This document shows, piece after piece, positions 10,952 through 17,818 of a stretch of 24,091 bases of DNA; positions within the stretch are counted from its first letter, which is position 1, and each line of letters begins with the position of its first letter. Position numbers and translations under genes: made by a program. Source of the stretch: Chloroflexota bacterium. Its GTDB lineage: Bacteria; Chloroflexota; UBA4733. Under the pieces are notes generated by a model, which saw nothing but the letters and a program-made list of their open reading frames with translations, searched no databases and was not told the DNA's origin. The stretch is taken from assembly GCA_025449435.1 (NCBI GenBank), contig JANWJO010000092.1, positions 1-24,091 of the forward strand, written 5' to 3'.

Positions 10952-12043
10952 CTATCCCTTGTACGAATCCAGCTCCCACATACCCGGGGCGCTAGTGGTG
11001 TCGCCCAGATCGGACATCTGCTTCACTAAGCCGATGTTGGCTACATACCACATGGTGAGGTGAGTCAAGATGTGCAAAGGCGTGGTCTTGCCGCTGGCAT
11101 CTTTGGTCGTCGTGTCGGTGGTTTCCACGCCCGTGACCTTGTAGGCGTTGAAGGTGCCCGCCTTGACGGTGACGGACTCTTGCGCGGCGATGGTGAAGTC
11201 GATCTTTGTCATCACAGGGCTGTCATCCGCTTGGGCGCCCGGCACATGGATGGTGGACGTTTCTGTCCACGTCTTTCCTACCGCCCAATCACTGTCCCTC
11301 GGCACCAGCACCCCAGTGGTAGCTGTGACCGCAATCAGGCTGCTCGGGTCAATCGGGCCACCAGGTGATGTATTGGTTCCTACCAGGTTCATGCCAGCAT
11401 CGGTACATGCCCAGTAACTATCCACCAGGACGCCGTCACCCTCGTCGGTCTCCTCGGTAAAGCTGTTCTGCTTCACCTCAGTAATGGTCGAGGTCTCCTG
11501 GAAAGGGGTATCGACCACGCCATGGACGGTGTAGACGTGCTGGAAGTGGAGCTTTATGGGTAAGTAGGTACTGGCACACGCAGCCGTTCCGGTGATCAGG
11601 GTGGCTGGCCCGGCCGCTGTCGTAGCCGCCTGGCTCGCCGAGGTTGCCGCTGAACTGGTTGTAGCGCTGCTTACCGCGGCGGTGGAAGCGTTCGCCGCCA
11701 CGGATGTGGCCGTCTCTTGTGTCGCGGTGGTTAGGGCACTGCTCGCCGTTGTGATTGCCGAGGCCGTTCCAGTAGAGCTTGGGCTGAACGTTGTGGCTGT
11801 CGTGCTTGTGGCTGGCTGCGCTGTCGTGGCGGCTGTGGTTGTGCTCGCACTGGCCTGAGCAGCCGACGCCGCGCTCACCGCTGCTGCTAGCGCACTGGTG
11901 ACCGCGCTGGCGCTGGCGCTTTGCTGGGCAGCAAGTGAACTGACGGCGGATTGGGTGGCACTAGCCGTGCTGGCGGGATTGCCGCCTCCACAGGCTGACA
12001 CCAGGAGAATGCTAGCGACGATGAAACCAAGGGCGCGATGCAC
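10952..12043 (-). CDS. Lipoprotein, paralogue 4 of the tandem family
   Basis: A signal peptide ending in the lipobox VSAC (about residues 15-18) marks a lipoprotein. It is followed by a roughly 130-residue low-complexity Ala/Ser/Thr segment and a C-terminal domain of about 200 residues shared by all four neighbours. Shared landmarks are YLPIKLHFQHVY, DSDWAVGKTW, FTIAAQESVTVKAGTFNAYKV and WYVANIGLVKQ. I do not recognise a named function; similar beta-rich domains in other bacteria are annotated only as hypothetical or DUF-type. The start is GTG 12043, chosen because AAGGAG lies 6 nt upstream and the homologous position is the start in its neighbour; an ATG at 12067 would add eight residues. 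It is the last gene of a probable operon, 51 nt after the preceding gene, and is the most divergent C-terminal domain. Confidence 0.85.
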   Translation of the reverse strand: MHRALGFIVASILLVSACGGGNPASTASATQSAVSSLAAQQSASASAVTSALAAAVSAASAAQASASTTTAATTAQPATSTTATTFSPSSTGTASAITTASSALTTATQETATSVAANASTAAVSSATTSSAATSASQAATTAAGPATLITGTAACASTYLPIKLHFQHVYTVHGVVDTPFQETSTITEVKQNSFTEETDEGDGVLVDSYWACTDAGMNLVGTNTSPGGPIDPSSLIAVTATTGVLVPRDSDWAVGKTWTETSTIHVPGAQADDSPVMTKIDFTIAAQESVTVKAGTFNAYKVTGVETTDTTTKDASGKTTPLHILTHLTMWYVANIGLVKQMSDLGDTTSAPGMWELDSYKG

Positions 12044-12094
12044 AGGTATCTCCTTCAGTGGTGCCACTGCTCAAAACGAGCGTCGCCAGGGTGC

Positions 12095-13090
12095 CTAGGA
12101 GAGCTTGTATGAGAGGAGCACCTCGTCCGTGATAGGAGCCTTGTTTGGTCCTACAACAGTCCGCTGTGATTTGACTTGACCTACGTTGGCTGCGAACCAC
12201 ACGTCGGTATCCACCGTCACGTTCATCGGTATGGAGACACCCGCGGCGACCATCGTCAACTTTTCCGTCGTGATTTCGTGGACCTTGAACGCATTCGTGA
12301 ACGTGCCGGCTGGCACGGTAACGGGCTCCTGCGACACGATGGTGAAATCAATCGTCACTGTCCCTTTGCTCCCCGCGGCAACGCTGGTCGCAGAACTGGT
12401 GGCGTTGCCGGTAACCGTGACGGTGGGCAGGGTCATGGTGACGTCGTAGGACACCGACCACTTTTTGCCGATGGACCAGTCGGCATCTGGTGGAATCCAG
12501 ACGCCCGTCTCGTTGGTTATGGTCATCGTCATTTTGCTGGTGGGAGATGAGGAACTATCTCCGCCGAGGTCGAGCGTTGTCGAGGCAAGTCCACTCGCAG
12601 AGCAGTTCCAATGCACGTCAACAGCATCGTGGCCTTCCAGTTGCTCGGACATGCCAAAAGAGGTGGGTGTGACATCAACGATTGTTTGGGTTGTTTGCGT
12701 TGGCTTACCCGAGGCAGTTTGCGTGGATTGATACACCCACTGGTTGTTATTCTTGATGGGGAAGTATTTGCTGTGCACACACTGCCCAGTACCTGCGCCT
12801 CCTGAACTCGCGGCGGCTGAGGGTCGCGAAGTGGCCGACGTGGTGATGGCGCGGCGCGTGGGTGTTGCCGGTGGCGGTGAGGAGGCGGCTGTCGTCGTGC
12901 TCGCCACCGACGTGAGGTTCACGCTCGTTGGCACGGCTGTAGCACTGGCTGCGGATTGCACAACGCTGGCCACCGGTGCCGCGCTGGTGGTCACGGCTTG
13001 AGTGGTACTCTCAGCGCTGGCGTCACTGCCGCCTCCACAGGCCGCCACGAGCAACATGGCCACGACGATATAACCGCTGGCGCGATGCAT
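12095..13090 (-). CDS. Lipoprotein, paralogue 3 of the tandem family
   Basis: MHRASGYIVVAMLLVAAC is a lipoprotein signal peptide with lipobox VAAC. A Ser/Thr/Ala-rich linker to about residue 105 leads to the shared C-terminal domain, with KYFPIKNNNQWVYQST, GVWIPPDADWSIGKKW, FTIVSQEPVTVPAGTF and WFAANVGQVKSQ. Two cysteines in the C-terminal domain (near GQCVHSKYF and WNCSASG) recur in the other copies and may form a disulfide outside the cell. ATG 13090 is preceded by AAGGAGG at 5 nt, fixing the start although the frame is open further upstream. DNA similarity to the next upstream copy is high over the C-terminal half, so the two probably arose by recent tandem duplication. The function is unknown; a cell-surface or binding role is only inferred. 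Confidence 0.88.
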   Translation of the reverse strand: MHRASGYIVVAMLLVAACGGGSDASAESTTQAVTTSAAPVASVVQSAASATAVPTSVNLTSVASTTTAASSPPPATPTRRAITTSATSRPSAAASSGGAGTGQCVHSKYFPIKNNNQWVYQSTQTASGKPTQTTQTIVDVTPTSFGMSEQLEGHDAVDVHWNCSASGLASTTLDLGGDSSSSPTSKMTMTITNETGVWIPPDADWSIGKKWSVSYDVTMTLPTVTVTGNATSSATSVAAGSKGTVTIDFTIVSQEPVTVPAGTFTNAFKVHEITTEKLTMVAAGVSIPMNVTVDTDVWFAANVGQVKSQRTVVGPNKAPITDEVLLSYKLS

Positions 13091-13139
13091 GGGTACCTCC
13101 TTCGAGGGTGCCGCTGCACGGAATGCGCCGTTGCTAGGT

Positions 13140-14309
13140 CTAGGAGACCGTGTAGGATACGAGCTGCTGGTCAATAGAAGCGGCGTTAGGGATCGTTGTT
13201 TCCGACTTTACCTGGCCCACGCCGGCCACGTACCACGTGTCGGTTGTAAACGTGATGTTGATCGGTATGGATATGCCCGCGGCGCCCATCGCCAGATTTT
13301 CTGTGATGACCTGGTGGACTTTGAACGCGTTGTTAAAGGTGCCTGCTGGCACGGTGACCGGCTCCTGCGACACGATGGTGAAGTCAATCGTCACCGTCCC
13401 CTTGCCGCCCATAGAAAGGGTGGTTGCGGTGCTGGTCGAGTTGCCGGTGGCGGTGACGGTGGGCAGAGCCATGGCGACGTCATAGGACACCGTCCACTTC
13501 TTGCCGACTGCCCAGTCGGCATCTGGTGGGATCCAGACGCCCGTCTCGTTGGTCACGGTCATCGTCATTTTGCTGGCAGGAGAGGAACCTCCCCCGCCCA
13601 GGTCGAGCGTCGTGGAGGAAAGGCCACCAGCGGCGCACGTCCAGTTAAGAGCAACCGGTGACTTGCCTTGCAGCGTTGTTTGCATGCCGAAGGACGTCGG
13701 GGTGACGGCGGTGATGGTTTGGGTGACCTGCGTTGGCGCCCCAGTGACCGCGTCGGTCGTTTGATACACCCATTGGTTGTTGATTTTGATCGGGAAGTAT
13801 TTGCTGTTGACACATAGCCCGGTGCCGCCGCCACCAGAACTCGCGGATACTGCAGGCTTCGAGGTGGCCGCGGACGTGGTAGCACTGCTCGTGGTCGTTG
13901 CCGGTGGCGGTGAGGAGAACGCCGTGGTGGTGCTTGCCACCGAGGTGAGGCTTGCACTGGCTTGCGCAGCCGAGGCGGCGCTCTCGATGGCCGCCGAATT
14001 GGCCGAGGCGACGCTCGCTGCCACCGACGCAGCGCTCTCGATGGCCGCCGAATTGGCCGAAGCAAAGCTCGCCGCCGCCGACGCAGCGCTCTCGATAGCT
14101 GACGAATTGGCTGAGGCGAAACTCGCTGCCAGCGACGCCGCACTCTCGATAGCGCTCTGTTGCGATTGCAGCGCGACGGCGAGCGATGACGCGCTGGTGA
14201 TTGCCGCTTGGGCCGTGCCAACGGCGCCCGCCGGGTTACTCAGGTCACACGACGTCAACAGCAACATGGCAGTGATGATGAGCCCGAAGGCTCGAGGTGC
14301 GCGCTGCAT
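13140..14309 (-). CDS. Lipoprotein, paralogue 2, with internal 18-residue repeats
   Basis: The signal peptide ends in lipobox LTSC. The linker contains three full copies and one partial copy of an 18-residue unit of the form SAASxAASxASANSxAIE, predicted to be an Ala/Ser-rich helix or disordered stalk. The C-terminal domain has KYFPIKINNQWVYQT, GVWIPPDADWAVGKKW, FTIVSQEPVTVPAGTF and WYVAGVGQVKSE and matches the next gene closely. ATG 14309 has GGAAGGGA about 5 nt upstream; an in-frame ATG at 14333 lacks this. It is the first gene of a probable three-gene run, with gaps of 49 and 51 nt. Upstream lie a nine-base G/C homopolymer and a GCCGGATACT element. The repeats make its length prone to change by slippage or recombination. 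Confidence 0.88.
   Translation of the reverse strand: MQRAPRAFGLIITAMLLLTSCDLSNPAGAVGTAQAAITSASSLAVALQSQQSAIESAASLAASFASANSSAIESAASAAASFASANSAAIESAASVAASVASANSAAIESAASAAQASASLTSVASTTTAFSSPPPATTTSSATTSAATSKPAVSASSGGGGTGLCVNSKYFPIKINNQWVYQTTDAVTGAPTQVTQTITAVTPTSFGMQTTLQGKSPVALNWTCAAGGLSSTTLDLGGGGSSPASKMTMTVTNETGVWIPPDADWAVGKKWTVSYDVAMALPTVTATGNSTSTATTLSMGGKGTVTIDFTIVSQEPVTVPAGTFNNAFKVHQVITENLAMGAAGISIPINITFTTDTWYVAGVGQVKSETTIPNAASIDQQLVSYTVS
13981..14158. repeat. 54-bp in-frame tandem repeat (three full copies plus a part)
   Basis: Units start at 13981, 14035 and 14089, with a partial unit at 14143. Each begins CTCTCGATRGC on the plus strand and encodes the 18-residue lipoprotein stalk unit on the minus strand. 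The unit length is a multiple of three, so copy-number change would keep the frame and only lengthen or shorten the stalk. Confidence 0.9.
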
Positions 14310-14486
14310 GGCAGTCCCTTCCGGTGAGTACACGTGGGCAGAGCATGGTTAAAGAGCGTTGCACAAGGGTGCCAGGATTGCTTTCCTGGAGGAGAGTATC
14401 CGGCAAATGGGGGGGGGCACACCATTCGTACAAGTGGCCATCGCATCAATCCCCCAAGGTTCCTACCAATGCCCAGGCGCCGAGGG
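14310..14486 (-). promoter_or_regulatory. Upstream region of the three-lipoprotein operon
   Basis: This gap holds a run of nine G on the plus strand (14409-14417; nine C on the coding strand). Immediately downstream on the coding strand is GCCGGATACT (14404-14395), which ends 85 nt before the start codon. A small inverted repeat CCAGGA/TCCTGG lies at 14372-14389. No consensus -35 box is found at the usual spacing. Confidence 0.45.
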
Positions 14487-15404
14487 CTAAATGGTGTAGG
14501 ACACCAGTTCGGTGTTGATTTCCGTGAGCGAGCCGATGCTCTTGTCATATTTCACGCGGCCGACGTTGGCCACATACCAGGCGGCAGAGTTCACCACCTG
14601 GTTGGTAGGTAGCAACGTGCCAAACATATTGACCGTCATGTTCTGTGTGGAGACCTCTGTCACTTTGTAGGCGGTAAACGTGCCGGCAGGTACGGTGACC
14701 TGCTCTTGCGACGCGATAGTAAACACCGTTGACACCGTGCCCTTGGCGGTGAGTGTGCCGCTGATGTTGATGGAATAGCTCACGGTCCAGGTTTTCCCTA
14801 CGGCCCAATCGGTGTCTTTGGGCAACCATACCCCCGACACGTTATCAGCTTTGACGGCGAGCACCGGCTGGTTACCGCTACTTGGGCCGAGCATGGGCGC
14901 GTTATCCAAGAAAGCCGAACTCAAGCCATCCTGCGTGCACTGCCAGGTGCCGGTGACCGCTGCGCCGTTCGCGTCCTTCTCTTCCAACGTAAACGACGAC
15001 GGTTGCACAGTCAGGATGGTTTCGGTGGATTGCGGCATGGCCTTACCCTGCGGGCCGGTTTCGTTGTACACCCATTGAGCGTTGGCCTTCACGGGCATGT
15101 ACTTGTTATTGCAGGAGCCAGTGCCATTCCCTGCCGTGTTGGCCACGGTGGTGGCCAGTTGCGGCGAGGACGTCGCCGAGGTAATGGCAGTCGTGCTGGT
15201 GGCGCTCGCGGTTGCGCTTTGCGCCGCCACGAGTGAATTGGAGAGTGCATCGACGCTACTCTCGGACTGCTCCACCACGCTGACGAACGATGACGCGGTA
15301 CTGATCATGGCTTCAGCGGTGCCAGTAGCGCCAGCAATGTCGCTGGGGCCACACGCTGTGAGCAGCACCACGGCAAGGACTAAGGTGCACAGAGGGCGCG
15401 ACAT
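14487..15404 (-). CDS. Lipoprotein, paralogue 1 of the tandem family
   Basis: MSRPLCTLVLAVVLLTAC is a lipoprotein signal peptide with lipobox LTAC. The Ser/Ala/Thr linker is short (to about residue 95) and the C-terminal domain carries KYMPVKANAQWVYNE, GVWLPKDTDWAVGKTW, FTIASQEQVTVPAGTFTAYKV and WYVANVGRVKYD, the same landmarks as its three neighbours. The ATG at 15404 follows GGAAGGGA at a good distance. A 177-nt gap before the next copy, and its own GCCGGATACT element ending 81 nt upstream, suggest separate transcription. The family domain ends in an AGTF..YKV..WY..NVG pattern common in uncharacterised exported proteins. I assign no function. Confidence 0.88.
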   Translation of the reverse strand: MSRPLCTLVLAVVLLTACGPSDIAGATGTAEAMISTASSFVSVVEQSESSVDALSNSLVAAQSATASATSTTAITSATSSPQLATTVANTAGNGTGSCNNKYMPVKANAQWVYNETGPQGKAMPQSTETILTVQPSSFTLEEKDANGAAVTGTWQCTQDGLSSAFLDNAPMLGPSSGNQPVLAVKADNVSGVWLPKDTDWAVGKTWTVSYSINISGTLTAKGTVSTVFTIASQEQVTVPAGTFTAYKVTEVSTQNMTVNMFGTLLPTNQVVNSAAWYVANVGRVKYDKSIGSLTEINTELVSYTI

Positions 15405-16549: not shown

Positions 16550-16766
16550 TGAATATCGAGACAGTGGCTACAAGCAGATCACTCAGAGGGCACACACGAA
16601 GCAACGCTCCCCCTGGTGTGGTGGCCAGGGGGAGTAGCTGCTTGAGAAGAGGGGCGGCGTATCTATGCCAGCGCCGTCCCCTCGTGAGTGGTGGCGACGG
16701 ATCGGGGCGAGTACCCTACGCCCCGATCCTGATTTTGCGTCCCCACTGTCGATCCACAGCATTTAA
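16550..16766 (-). ncRNA. Three-hairpin structured region downstream of the permuted tRNAs
   Basis: No gene is seen. Three strong stem-loops follow the second tRNA on the minus strand. GGATCGGGGCG/CGCCCCGATCC is a perfect 11-bp stem (16699-16729, 9-nt loop). GGGGCGGCG/CGCCG-T-CCCC is 9 bp with one bulge (16651-16681). CTCCCCCTGG/CCAGGGGGAG is a perfect 10-bp stem (16607-16634, 8-nt loop). None has a T tract. They could protect or terminate the tRNA transcript, or form part of a larger RNA; no known RNA family is recognised. Confidence 0.4.
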
Positions 16767-16784
16767 GGCGGGGGTCACGTCTTA

Positions 16785-16867
16785 GACAGTTAGCTCTACC
16801 ACTGAGCTACCTCACCATGATCATCTAGAGGTGAGGGCTGGGATCGAACCAGCGGCCAACAGTCTCG
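16785..16867 (-). tRNA. Circularly permuted tRNA-like gene, identity unassigned
   Basis: On the minus strand the 3' half comes first: anticodon-stem strand CTGTT (16862-16858), variable GGCC, T arm GCTGG-TTCGATC-CCAGC (16853-16837), acceptor strand CCTCACC and T73 (16829). A 12-nt linker (16828-16817) follows, then the 5' half: acceptor GGTGAGG (16816-16810), T8 A9, D arm GCTC-AGTGGTA-GAGC (16807-16793), T26 and AACTG (16791-16787). The acceptor pairs 7/7 and the T stem 5/5; A14, G15-C48, G18 G19, T54 T55 C56 and A58 are present. The anticodon stem has one central T-T mismatch. The halves would rejoin at the anticodon loop, but every split I tried leaves no T33 and no clear anticodon; the short variable loop excludes Leu or Ser class II. 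CCA is not encoded. It could be functional or decaying. Confidence 0.75.
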
Positions 16868-16948
16868 CCCCACGCCGGTCGAGAGGACCGACGAACGCGC
16901 ATGCGAAGCCTGGAGCAATAACCTCAACTTGATGCTCCGGCGAATCTC

Positions 16949-17027
16949 GTGGGTGTGCGCTATCCGCTACGCCACCCCGGCATGGAGTGCCGGGGGATGG
17001 ATTCGAACCACCGTTCTCACCCTTCGT
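16949..17027 (-). tRNA. Circularly permuted tRNA gene, Arg(ACG)-like
   Basis: On the minus strand the 3' half comes first: ACGAA (17027-17023), anticodon-stem strand GGGTG (17022-17018), variable AGAAC, T arm GGTGG-TTCGAAT-CCATC, acceptor strand CCCCGGC and A73 (16988). A 6-nt linker CTCCAT follows, then the 5' half: acceptor GCCGGGG (16981-16975), T8 G9, D arm GCGT-AGCGGATA-GCGC, A26 and CACCC (16955-16951). Rejoined, it gives a standard 73-nt class I tRNA with 7/7 acceptor, 5/5 anticodon-stem and 5/5 T-stem pairs (one G-T). T8-A14, G15-C48, G18 G19 and T54 T55 C56 A58 are intact. ACG followed by AA, with A20 in the D loop, matches bacterial tRNA-Arg(ACG). Position 33 would be C rather than T under the obvious split. 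CCA is not encoded. Confidence 0.85.
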
Positions 17028-17084
17028 TGGATTCTTCCGGATGTTTAGCCTCAGCCTGCTACCAAAGCTGGATTGCTCCCTCCA

Positions 17085-17818
17085 TTATTTTGCGAATACG
17101 TGGTCGAAAAACGCTTTCCCGATCTGGGGCTGCGTCACTTCCATGCTGTTCGCTGCTTCCCGCGCGAATTGTACCGCCTTCTTCAGGGCGTCCACGCGTT
17201 CCAGCAGTTGCGCCACCCGCTGCTGCGGGAGCGCGCCAGAGTATTCAATTTTGGTCCACTCGCCGACCTTGACGTCCTCATGCCACACCTGGACCTGGGC
17301 TGGGTGCTCCTTGGTCGCCTCATAGGTCACGAGGACGCGCGGCACTTTCTTCGAGCGCACGGTGCGTACGGGCGCTGTCGCGTAAGCGTCCACAGCGGCG
17401 TCGTAGTGCCTTCCTGCTCCTGTGAGAGCACCGGTAGTTTGGAGACAAAGGTGTGCAGGTCGACCAGCTGCTTTTCGAGGAACAGCAGCAAGGTGACCGG
17501 TGCATCCTTGACGATGACCTTGCCATCGATCGTGACGTCTGCCTTGGCGAGCCCGTTGGCGGTTTCCTTGGTGGCAGTGATGTCCATGAGATCAGTCCAC
17601 GCCTTGACCGTCTCATCGATGATGGTTTGGGCGCGCAACTGCACGCGCGTGGACTCCGGCGGGAGCGTTTCCCCCTCATCGTCCAAGGGCTGGTAGGTCC
17701 GGGACAGCCCGATAAACGCGGCCGGCTTCTGGACCTGCTTGTACGCCTCGTTGATCTGGTCGTTGGTTCGAGTCTTCTCGCCCTTCTCGATGGCGATGAT
17801 CTGATTCAGCTTTGGCAC
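17085..17818 (-). pseudogene. Conserved hypothetical protein gene split by a frameshift
   Basis: The first part opens MPKLNQIIAIEKGEKTRTNDQI (GTG 17818, AAAGGAG 8 nt upstream) and runs through VTLLLFLEKQLVDLHTFVSKLPVL to about 17416. The reading then continues only in another frame as HYDAAVDAYATAPVRTVRSKKVP and runs to TAA at 17085. Joined, they give one protein of about 243 residues that resembles a widespread family of unknown function (I recall it as a DUF-type family, not confirmed here). One missing base near GGAAGGCAC (about 17415-17420) would explain the break. It could be a true mutation, an assembly error or, less likely, recoding; no classical slippery heptamer is seen. TATACT (17864-17859) is a possible -10 box. 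The stop codon lies about 5 nt before the pairing flank of the first permuted tRNA, so they may share a transcript. Confidence 0.75.

Follow-up and report, generated by a model that had tools for sequence, protein, structure and literature searches.

The window analysed here, 24,091 nt of contig JANWJO010000092.1 (positions 1 to 24,091) of a Chloroflexota bacterium (GCA_025449435.1), carries on its minus strand, directly downstream of a gene of the protein family DUF7873, a predicted noncoding RNA with two tandem tRNA-like modules in permuted order. With a probability of roughly 0.72, this RNA forms a ribonucleoprotein (RNP) with DUF7873 and is a mimic of tRNA, not the circularly permuted tRNA-Arg(ACG) gene that a sequence-only reading of the locus had proposed. 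The partnership with the protein is itself probable, as judged from a co-occurrence that holds also in trans. The RNA would be transcribed in one piece, bind DUF7873 and offer, through its tRNA-like arms, a surface to a tRNA-recognising enzyme.

Permuted modules and their stems

Module 1 (16957..17012, minus strand) is arranged in the order T arm, 3′ acceptor strand, 7-nt linker ACTCCAT, 5′ acceptor strand and D arm, and the relatives align over it. All 16 stem pairs of the motif scan are formed, with seven of seven in the acceptor stem, five of five in the T stem (one of them G-U) and four of four in the D stem. Read on the minus strand from 17041 to 16936, an anticodon-like GGGTG is followed by the T arm, the 3′ acceptor strand with A73, six bases, the 5′ acceptor strand, the D arm and CACCC, and the letters of the region are GGGTG-AGAAC-GGTGG(TTCGAAT)CCATC-CCCCGGC-A-CTCCAT-GCCGGGG-TG-GCGT(AGCGGATA)GCGC-A-CACCC. 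GG is present in the D loop and TTCGA in the T loop, and GGGTG and CACCC form a 5-bp helix with a 5-nt variable loop. Sequence and scan thus bear out the order described in the sequence-only reading, in which the 3′ half stands ahead of the 5′ half and the acceptor strands are complementary. Its judgement that this is no chance mixture also holds, as the scan finds one match in 1,003,084 bases of control (reversed, uncomplemented DNA, both strands) against recurrence in related loci. A search of relatives for the same order, which it had suggested, finds that order in many bacteria.

Across the whole window the scan detects two permuted modules, both on the minus strand. The first had been noted before; the second (module 2, 16793..16853) had been missed. 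Module 2 is permuted in the same way with a 13-nt linker, coincides with a sub-threshold Rfam match to the bacterial Y RNA YrlA, and lies about 100 nt downstream of module 1 in the same predicted structured RNA.

Each module is part of a larger domain. Domain 1 (16912..17080, minus strand) consists of module 1 and a flanking stem, as derived from the alignment and from folds with the module forced; its boundaries are approximate, being placed by eye at the complementary segments GGAGCAAT and ATTGCTCC. Domain 2 (16729..16900, minus strand) sets module 2 on a long covarying stem and is defined by covariation and by the covariance model R1. An internal loop in it is conserved as GATCGA / CTTAAAYG and reads CTCGACC / CCTTAAATG in the window, where the domain matches R1 over its full length at 110.9 bits, the window copy being among the 26 sequences on which R1 was trained. 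On the 3′ side of domain 2 a GC-rich hairpin with GGGTA in its loop region (16700..16729, minus strand) was recognised by eye from sequence and alignment; many aligned relatives have, again by eye, such a hairpin with the loop segment GGNYA. It is possibly the 3′ end of the RNA or a third element, and it is absent from the output of the terminator scan.

The strongest structural evidence comes from domain 2. For 26 diverse sequences, RNAalifold gives a structure of 33 pairs, of which 30 show compensatory (two-sided) changes; 96.8% of cells are paired, and the covariation score of 0.724 compares with 0.227 ± 0.014 for shuffled alignments (none of 500 as high) and with 0.120–0.145 when the partners are slid. 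The changes extend beyond the tRNA-like module, since 16 of the 17 pairs outside it vary on both sides, and the stem runs on, with covariation, past the position of an anticodon stem. The stem of domain 1 probably extends beyond that position likewise. Its outer stem, placed by eye from one sequence, has 72–76% of cells paired, and the whole domain-1 structure reaches 85.1% against 34.7–44.0% for slid versions.

Conservation and co-occurrence with DUF7873

The DUF7873 gene (17085..17818, minus strand; Pfam PF25283) contains a frameshift near 17400 in this record and is therefore seen as two open reading frames (ORFs), which overlap at 17327-17393. Both lie above the curated Pfam cut-off of 27 bits: ORF 17327-17818 covers profile positions 1-136 (179.5 bits) and ORF 17085-17393 positions 144-243 (135.1 bits). 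Related proteins are about 244 amino acids long and 74–86% identical over the first part, and with 3372 matches the family has thousands of members. The first strand assigned to the predicted RNA begins about 5 nt past the stop codon of the gene.

Conservation was followed in 114 DUF7873 loci, comprising 80 bacterial loci (the best 80 of 579 confirmed relatives) and 34 scan-confirmed loci on viral contigs. In 101 loci, modules lie no more than 700 nt 3′ of DUF7873 (two modules in 58, one in 43, none in the remaining 13), usually 50–150 nt past the stop codon and on the same strand. The motif TTAAAYG is found 3′ of the gene in 78 of the 114 loci and in one of 114 control stretches. Scan matches of any kind are present in 104 loci. 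As tRNA genes nearby in phage clusters account for part of these, the main counts are based on module position or on matches to the covariance model. On that basis the predicted RNA is found for 111 loci, nearby in 108 (three of them weak) and elsewhere in the genome or record in three. Four loci with no scan module in range (L016, L056, L106, L112) have R1 matches of 66–132 bits within the locus, the copies in L056 and L112 lying upstream of DUF7873. The weak in-locus matches (L091, L092, L103) score 31–37 bits, and the 31.2-bit match of L103 in the locus search is missing from the whole-record search. The copies elsewhere score 110.8 bits (L006) and 48.4 bits (L088 and L089), and in the pieces fetched for L006 and L088 a second module match and the TTAAAYG motif are also present. 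L110 has weak R1 matches only, and the 38.6-kb record of L105 has none.

The combination of DUF7873 and predicted RNA spans Actinomycetota, Chloroflexota, other phyla and phages. In Arthrobacter phage Mimi, DUF7873 is gene 144, an R1 match of 85.2 bits lies just downstream, and 22 tRNA genes occupy the 6 kb upstream. An R1 match of 67.2 bits is present in Gordonia phage Ronaldo. In Klebsiella phage KpLz-2_45 the DUF7873 protein shares 28% identity across its first part and tRNA genes lie about 3 kb away; this phage has a scan module and a separate, partial R1 match at module level (32.8 bits), and Vibrio phage D517 has one scan module and an R1 score of 16.8 bits. In several phage tRNA clusters (L100, L104, L106, L112, L130) the 3′ acceptor strand of one tRNA can pair with the 5′ strand of its neighbour; adjacent tRNA genes can thereby mimic the permuted order, so that lone scan matches in such clusters prove nothing.

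For whole genomes, carriers were defined by a full-length R1 match of at least 78 bits, a threshold set because R1 gives a Ro60-linked RNA 56.3 bits (L115; a second, L116, scores 50.9 bits). In the Chloroflexota sample, 12 of 151 genomes have DUF7873 and 10 genomes reach the threshold, each of which has DUF7873. The two DUF7873 genomes below it are G037, with a 37.2-bit match beside the gene together with domain 1 and the motif, and a second one that is taken up below. In the Actinomycetota sample, DUF7873 occurs in three of 149 genomes, and exactly these three have R1 matches, at 147.9–175.9 bits (among matches reported at E-values up to 1e-7). Over both samples the threshold is reached in 13 of 15 genomes with DUF7873 and in none of 285 without it (Fisher's exact test, 5e-21, ignoring relatedness), and the best listed match in the latter group is module-only at 52.0 bits (G197).

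The RNA also accompanies the protein where the two are not neighbours. In six of the 12 Chloroflexota genomes with DUF7873, RNA and gene lie apart, either on different contigs (G059, G068, G103, G109) or at distances of 123 kb (G126) and 1.8 Mb (G134) within the same genome. No DUF7873 was detected by tblastn in the five RNA loci that were fetched (G059, G103, G109, G126, G134); four of these show both modules by scan and the fifth (G109) shows one module and an R1 match, and the ORFs listed around three of them are unrelated genes. Some of the unlinked genomes look closely related, with shared flanking genes in loci L123 and L127, so that separate unlinking events number fewer than six.

Elsewhere in the window, four consecutive ORFs at 10952-15404 (minus strand) appear by eye to be paralogous Ser/Ala-rich secreted lipoproteins, one of which (14487-15404) has a sub-threshold DUF3108-like match.

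Interpretation and competing explanations

How the RNA and DUF7873 might work together can be sketched from bacterial Y RNAs, in which, according to excerpts of PMC8394870, the stem holds Rsr and the tRNA-like domain binds PNPase. By analogy, each tRNA-like module would cap a longer stem, the stems would dock on DUF7873, the two arms would tether a tRNA-recognising enzyme, and the assembly could serve as a scaffold for RNA processing or decay. The scaffold role is a tentative suggestion, less likely than the RNP itself.

Several observations weigh against this reading. The outer stem of domain 1 is likely and moderately supported, less firm than domain 2, and RNAalifold run on 32 domain-1 sequences predicts the module only and leaves the outer stem unpredicted. 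By itself the window RNA is no more stable than shuffled sequences (z = -1.24), and its unconstrained fold contains the acceptor stem of module 1 without T or D arms, with all three arms formed in module 2. R1 matches near 50 bits do not identify the RNA family. The remaining DUF7873 genome of the Chloroflexota sample (G124, locus L038) has a 50.1-bit match only, with no first module and no motifs; this match, in a genome that lacks a TROVE match, is one module (L134; contig C31, 20141-20293) with the motifs of neither RNA family, possibly another kind of tRNA-mimic RNA. Both samples include centre genomes picked for DUF7873 together with close relatives, and the counts of 13 in 15 and 0 in 285 are therefore not independent events. 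As for the protein, the window copy is frameshifted, the family is slightly acidic (median net charge -1 and median isoelectric point 6.4 in 55 proteins), and its predicted fold is confident (predicted local distance difference test, pLDDT, 91) without a clear known relative.

The main alternative shares the RNP and differs in the job assigned to it. The RNA, perhaps together with DUF7873, would act as a tRNA decoy and, when phage and host are in conflict, sequester enzymes that cleave or modify tRNA. That phages carry the cassette, in Mimi beside 22 tRNA genes and in KpLz-2_45 near tRNA genes, fits such a role, and a decoy function against an anticodon nuclease is suggested for YrlA in the excerpted text of PMC7790460. 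The arms, however, lack an anticodon loop, a usual target of nucleases, and PADLOC gave no match. Leaving aside ORFs that overlap DUF7873 or the RNA itself, the most widespread ORF families reach at most 15 of the 114 loci, none of them viral. A decoy is an unlikely function, though the main alternative to the scaffold.

An ordinary Y RNA that binds Ro60 and lies near DUF7873 by happenstance is the next explanation, and it is improbable. YrlA (RF02553), the partner of Ro60/Rsr, shares with the window RNA the permuted module of T arm, acceptor and D arm on a longer stem, and domain 2 displays the Y RNA trait of a tRNA-like module on a long basal stem. YrlA is reported to contain dihydrouridine and pseudouridine in its D and T loops. 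With E-values up to 1 allowed, Rfam places YrlA over module 2 at 16766-16872; it is also the best match for modules of three of seven relatives, while the other four have no YrlA match. In the positive control the motif scan finds permuted modules like these beside Ro60 genes in seven of eight loci, and two of the Ro60-linked RNAs have the R1 scores given above. TROVE, the Ro60 match, is moreover present in 12 of 25 DUF7873 genomes and, within the Chloroflexota sample, in seven of 151 genomes (five of 12 with DUF7873 and two of 139 without); in G103 (contig C8, about 80088-84999) it lies about 4.5 kb from the unlinked RNA copy. Against this, the YrlA matches stay at 27.3–33.1 bits where they occur (30.9 bits in the window), far below the gathering score of 69, and no Rfam 15 family exceeds its threshold in the window or the seven relatives. 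TROVE has no match in the other 13 of the 25 DUF7873 genomes, nor in seven window ORFs, and of eight TROVE loci fetched, seven lie on contigs that differ in length from that of DUF7873 and one is about 540 kb away on the same contig. The window RNA further differs from YrlA in combining two modules in one predicted RNA, in its partner gene and in its stem motifs: GGTTATCG or GGTTACTTC occurs in all eight Ro60 loci and in one of the 114 DUF7873 loci, whereas TTAAAYG, typical of DUF7873 loci, occurs in one of the eight. Ro60 may still be an additional partner, or be linked to the RNA in some genomes. As separate observations, the Ro60 loci of two DUF7873 genomes (L115, L116) contain three Y-RNA-like permuted modules in a row, and Deinobacterium chartae is the only one of 14 control genomes that matches both DUF7873 and TROVE.

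A permuted tRNA-like domain is also a feature of two-piece forms of tmRNA, and a cyano_tmRNA match, weaker than that of YrlA, covers the T arm and acceptor. The window RNA differs in having a 4-bp D stem, and a tmRNA identity was rejected as redundant, given that all eight DUF7873 genomes tested have an ordinary, separate tmRNA above cut-off.

The position on the same strand, usually shortly 3′ of the stop codon, would suit a cis-acting element in the 3′ untranslated region (UTR) of the DUF7873 mRNA. The unlinked copies in six sampled genomes, which argue that the RNA is not merely a 3′ UTR, and the upstream copies in two loci contradict this explanation, which was rejected as very improbable.

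The tRNA-Arg(ACG) gene itself, matured through a circular intermediate as in algae, ranks lower still and was rejected. Its appeal lies in the complete permuted order with acceptor, T and D arms and the 5-bp GGGTG/CACCC helix with its variable loop, and rotated forms do pass permissive ARAGORN; this setting, however, passes some rotation of all 155 modules and so does not discriminate. Rotated module 1 receives 21 different anticodon labels depending on the join, with Arg(acg) in three of 63 calls. The sequence-only reading had credited the rejoined tRNA with all conserved tertiary positions, which is too strong, since all eight joins that yield a 7-nt anticodon loop have A or C, never U, at position 33. 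A full 5-bp canonical anticodon stem with a variable loop of 4–5 nt is found in 14 of 91 domain-1 and 10 of 64 domain-2 modules, and four of the five pairs in a further 30 and 7, counts in which a few modules are mis-sorted between domains by the script; module 1 of the window has five of five. The outer stem of domain 2 covaries as part of the structure. Permuted tRNA genes, known at the time from six algae and one archaeon, depend on a bulge-helix-bulge motif and a splicing endonuclease according to the excerpted text of a 2014 review (PMC3978253), and a predicted fold shows by eye irregular internal loops with no 3-4-3 motif. The likeness to the permuted genes of algae and archaea consists in a 3′ half that precedes the 5′ half; the window RNA departs from them in having no settled anticodon or U33 and in keeping its stem beyond the anticodon helix, and excision of its linker is hypothetical only. 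With a longer structure of two modules, a join-dependent anticodon, no U33 and few canonical anticodon stems, the proposed tRNA-Arg(ACG) identity is not supported.

A decayed tandem pair of tRNA genes, of which the 3′ half of the first and the 5′ half of the second survive, would also be caught by the scan, as adjoining genes in phage tRNA clusters are, and was rejected as having a negligible chance, being contradicted by an order and spacing conserved in several phyla, by the covariation and by ARAGORN, which finds no ordinary tRNA in the window.

A probable tRNA mimic beyond Ro60

The sequence-only reading had regarded the permuted order as without an established bacterial example. A permuted tRNA-like order in a bacterium is indeed what is found; the novelty does not extend to the module, because the RNAs beside Ro60 carry such modules and are already known as tRNA mimics, and the tRNA-like module is thus familiar from Y RNAs. 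Within the scope of Rfam 15, applied to the window and seven relatives, and of the literature searched, the main Y RNA surveys lying outside the latter, what is new is an RNA with two modules, the motifs in its stems and its association with DUF7873. Nothing recognised as this RNA appeared in the literature found on Y RNA, YrlA, permuted tRNA, tRNA mimics and tRNA-like RNAs of phages and Streptomyces, and no paper found in the search names DUF7873.

The excerpts of that literature link the Y RNAs of bacteria, in their role as tRNA mimics, to a single protein, Ro60. In the present case an RNA bearing two tRNA-like arms co-occurs with another protein family, which is uncharacterised. On balance, we lean slightly towards a Ro60-independent class of RNPs common to bacteria and phages, in which a protein of no recognised fold and a double Y-like RNA would work in trans, serving tRNA-handling enzymes as a scaffold or luring them as a decoy. 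The association would give DUF7873 a testable partner, and it raises the question of what makes cells as well as phages retain mimics of tRNA that are incapable of decoding. For bacterial 'permuted tRNAs' it also suggests a rule, namely that a tRNA gene should be claimed only once a mimic carried by a longer stem has been looked for.
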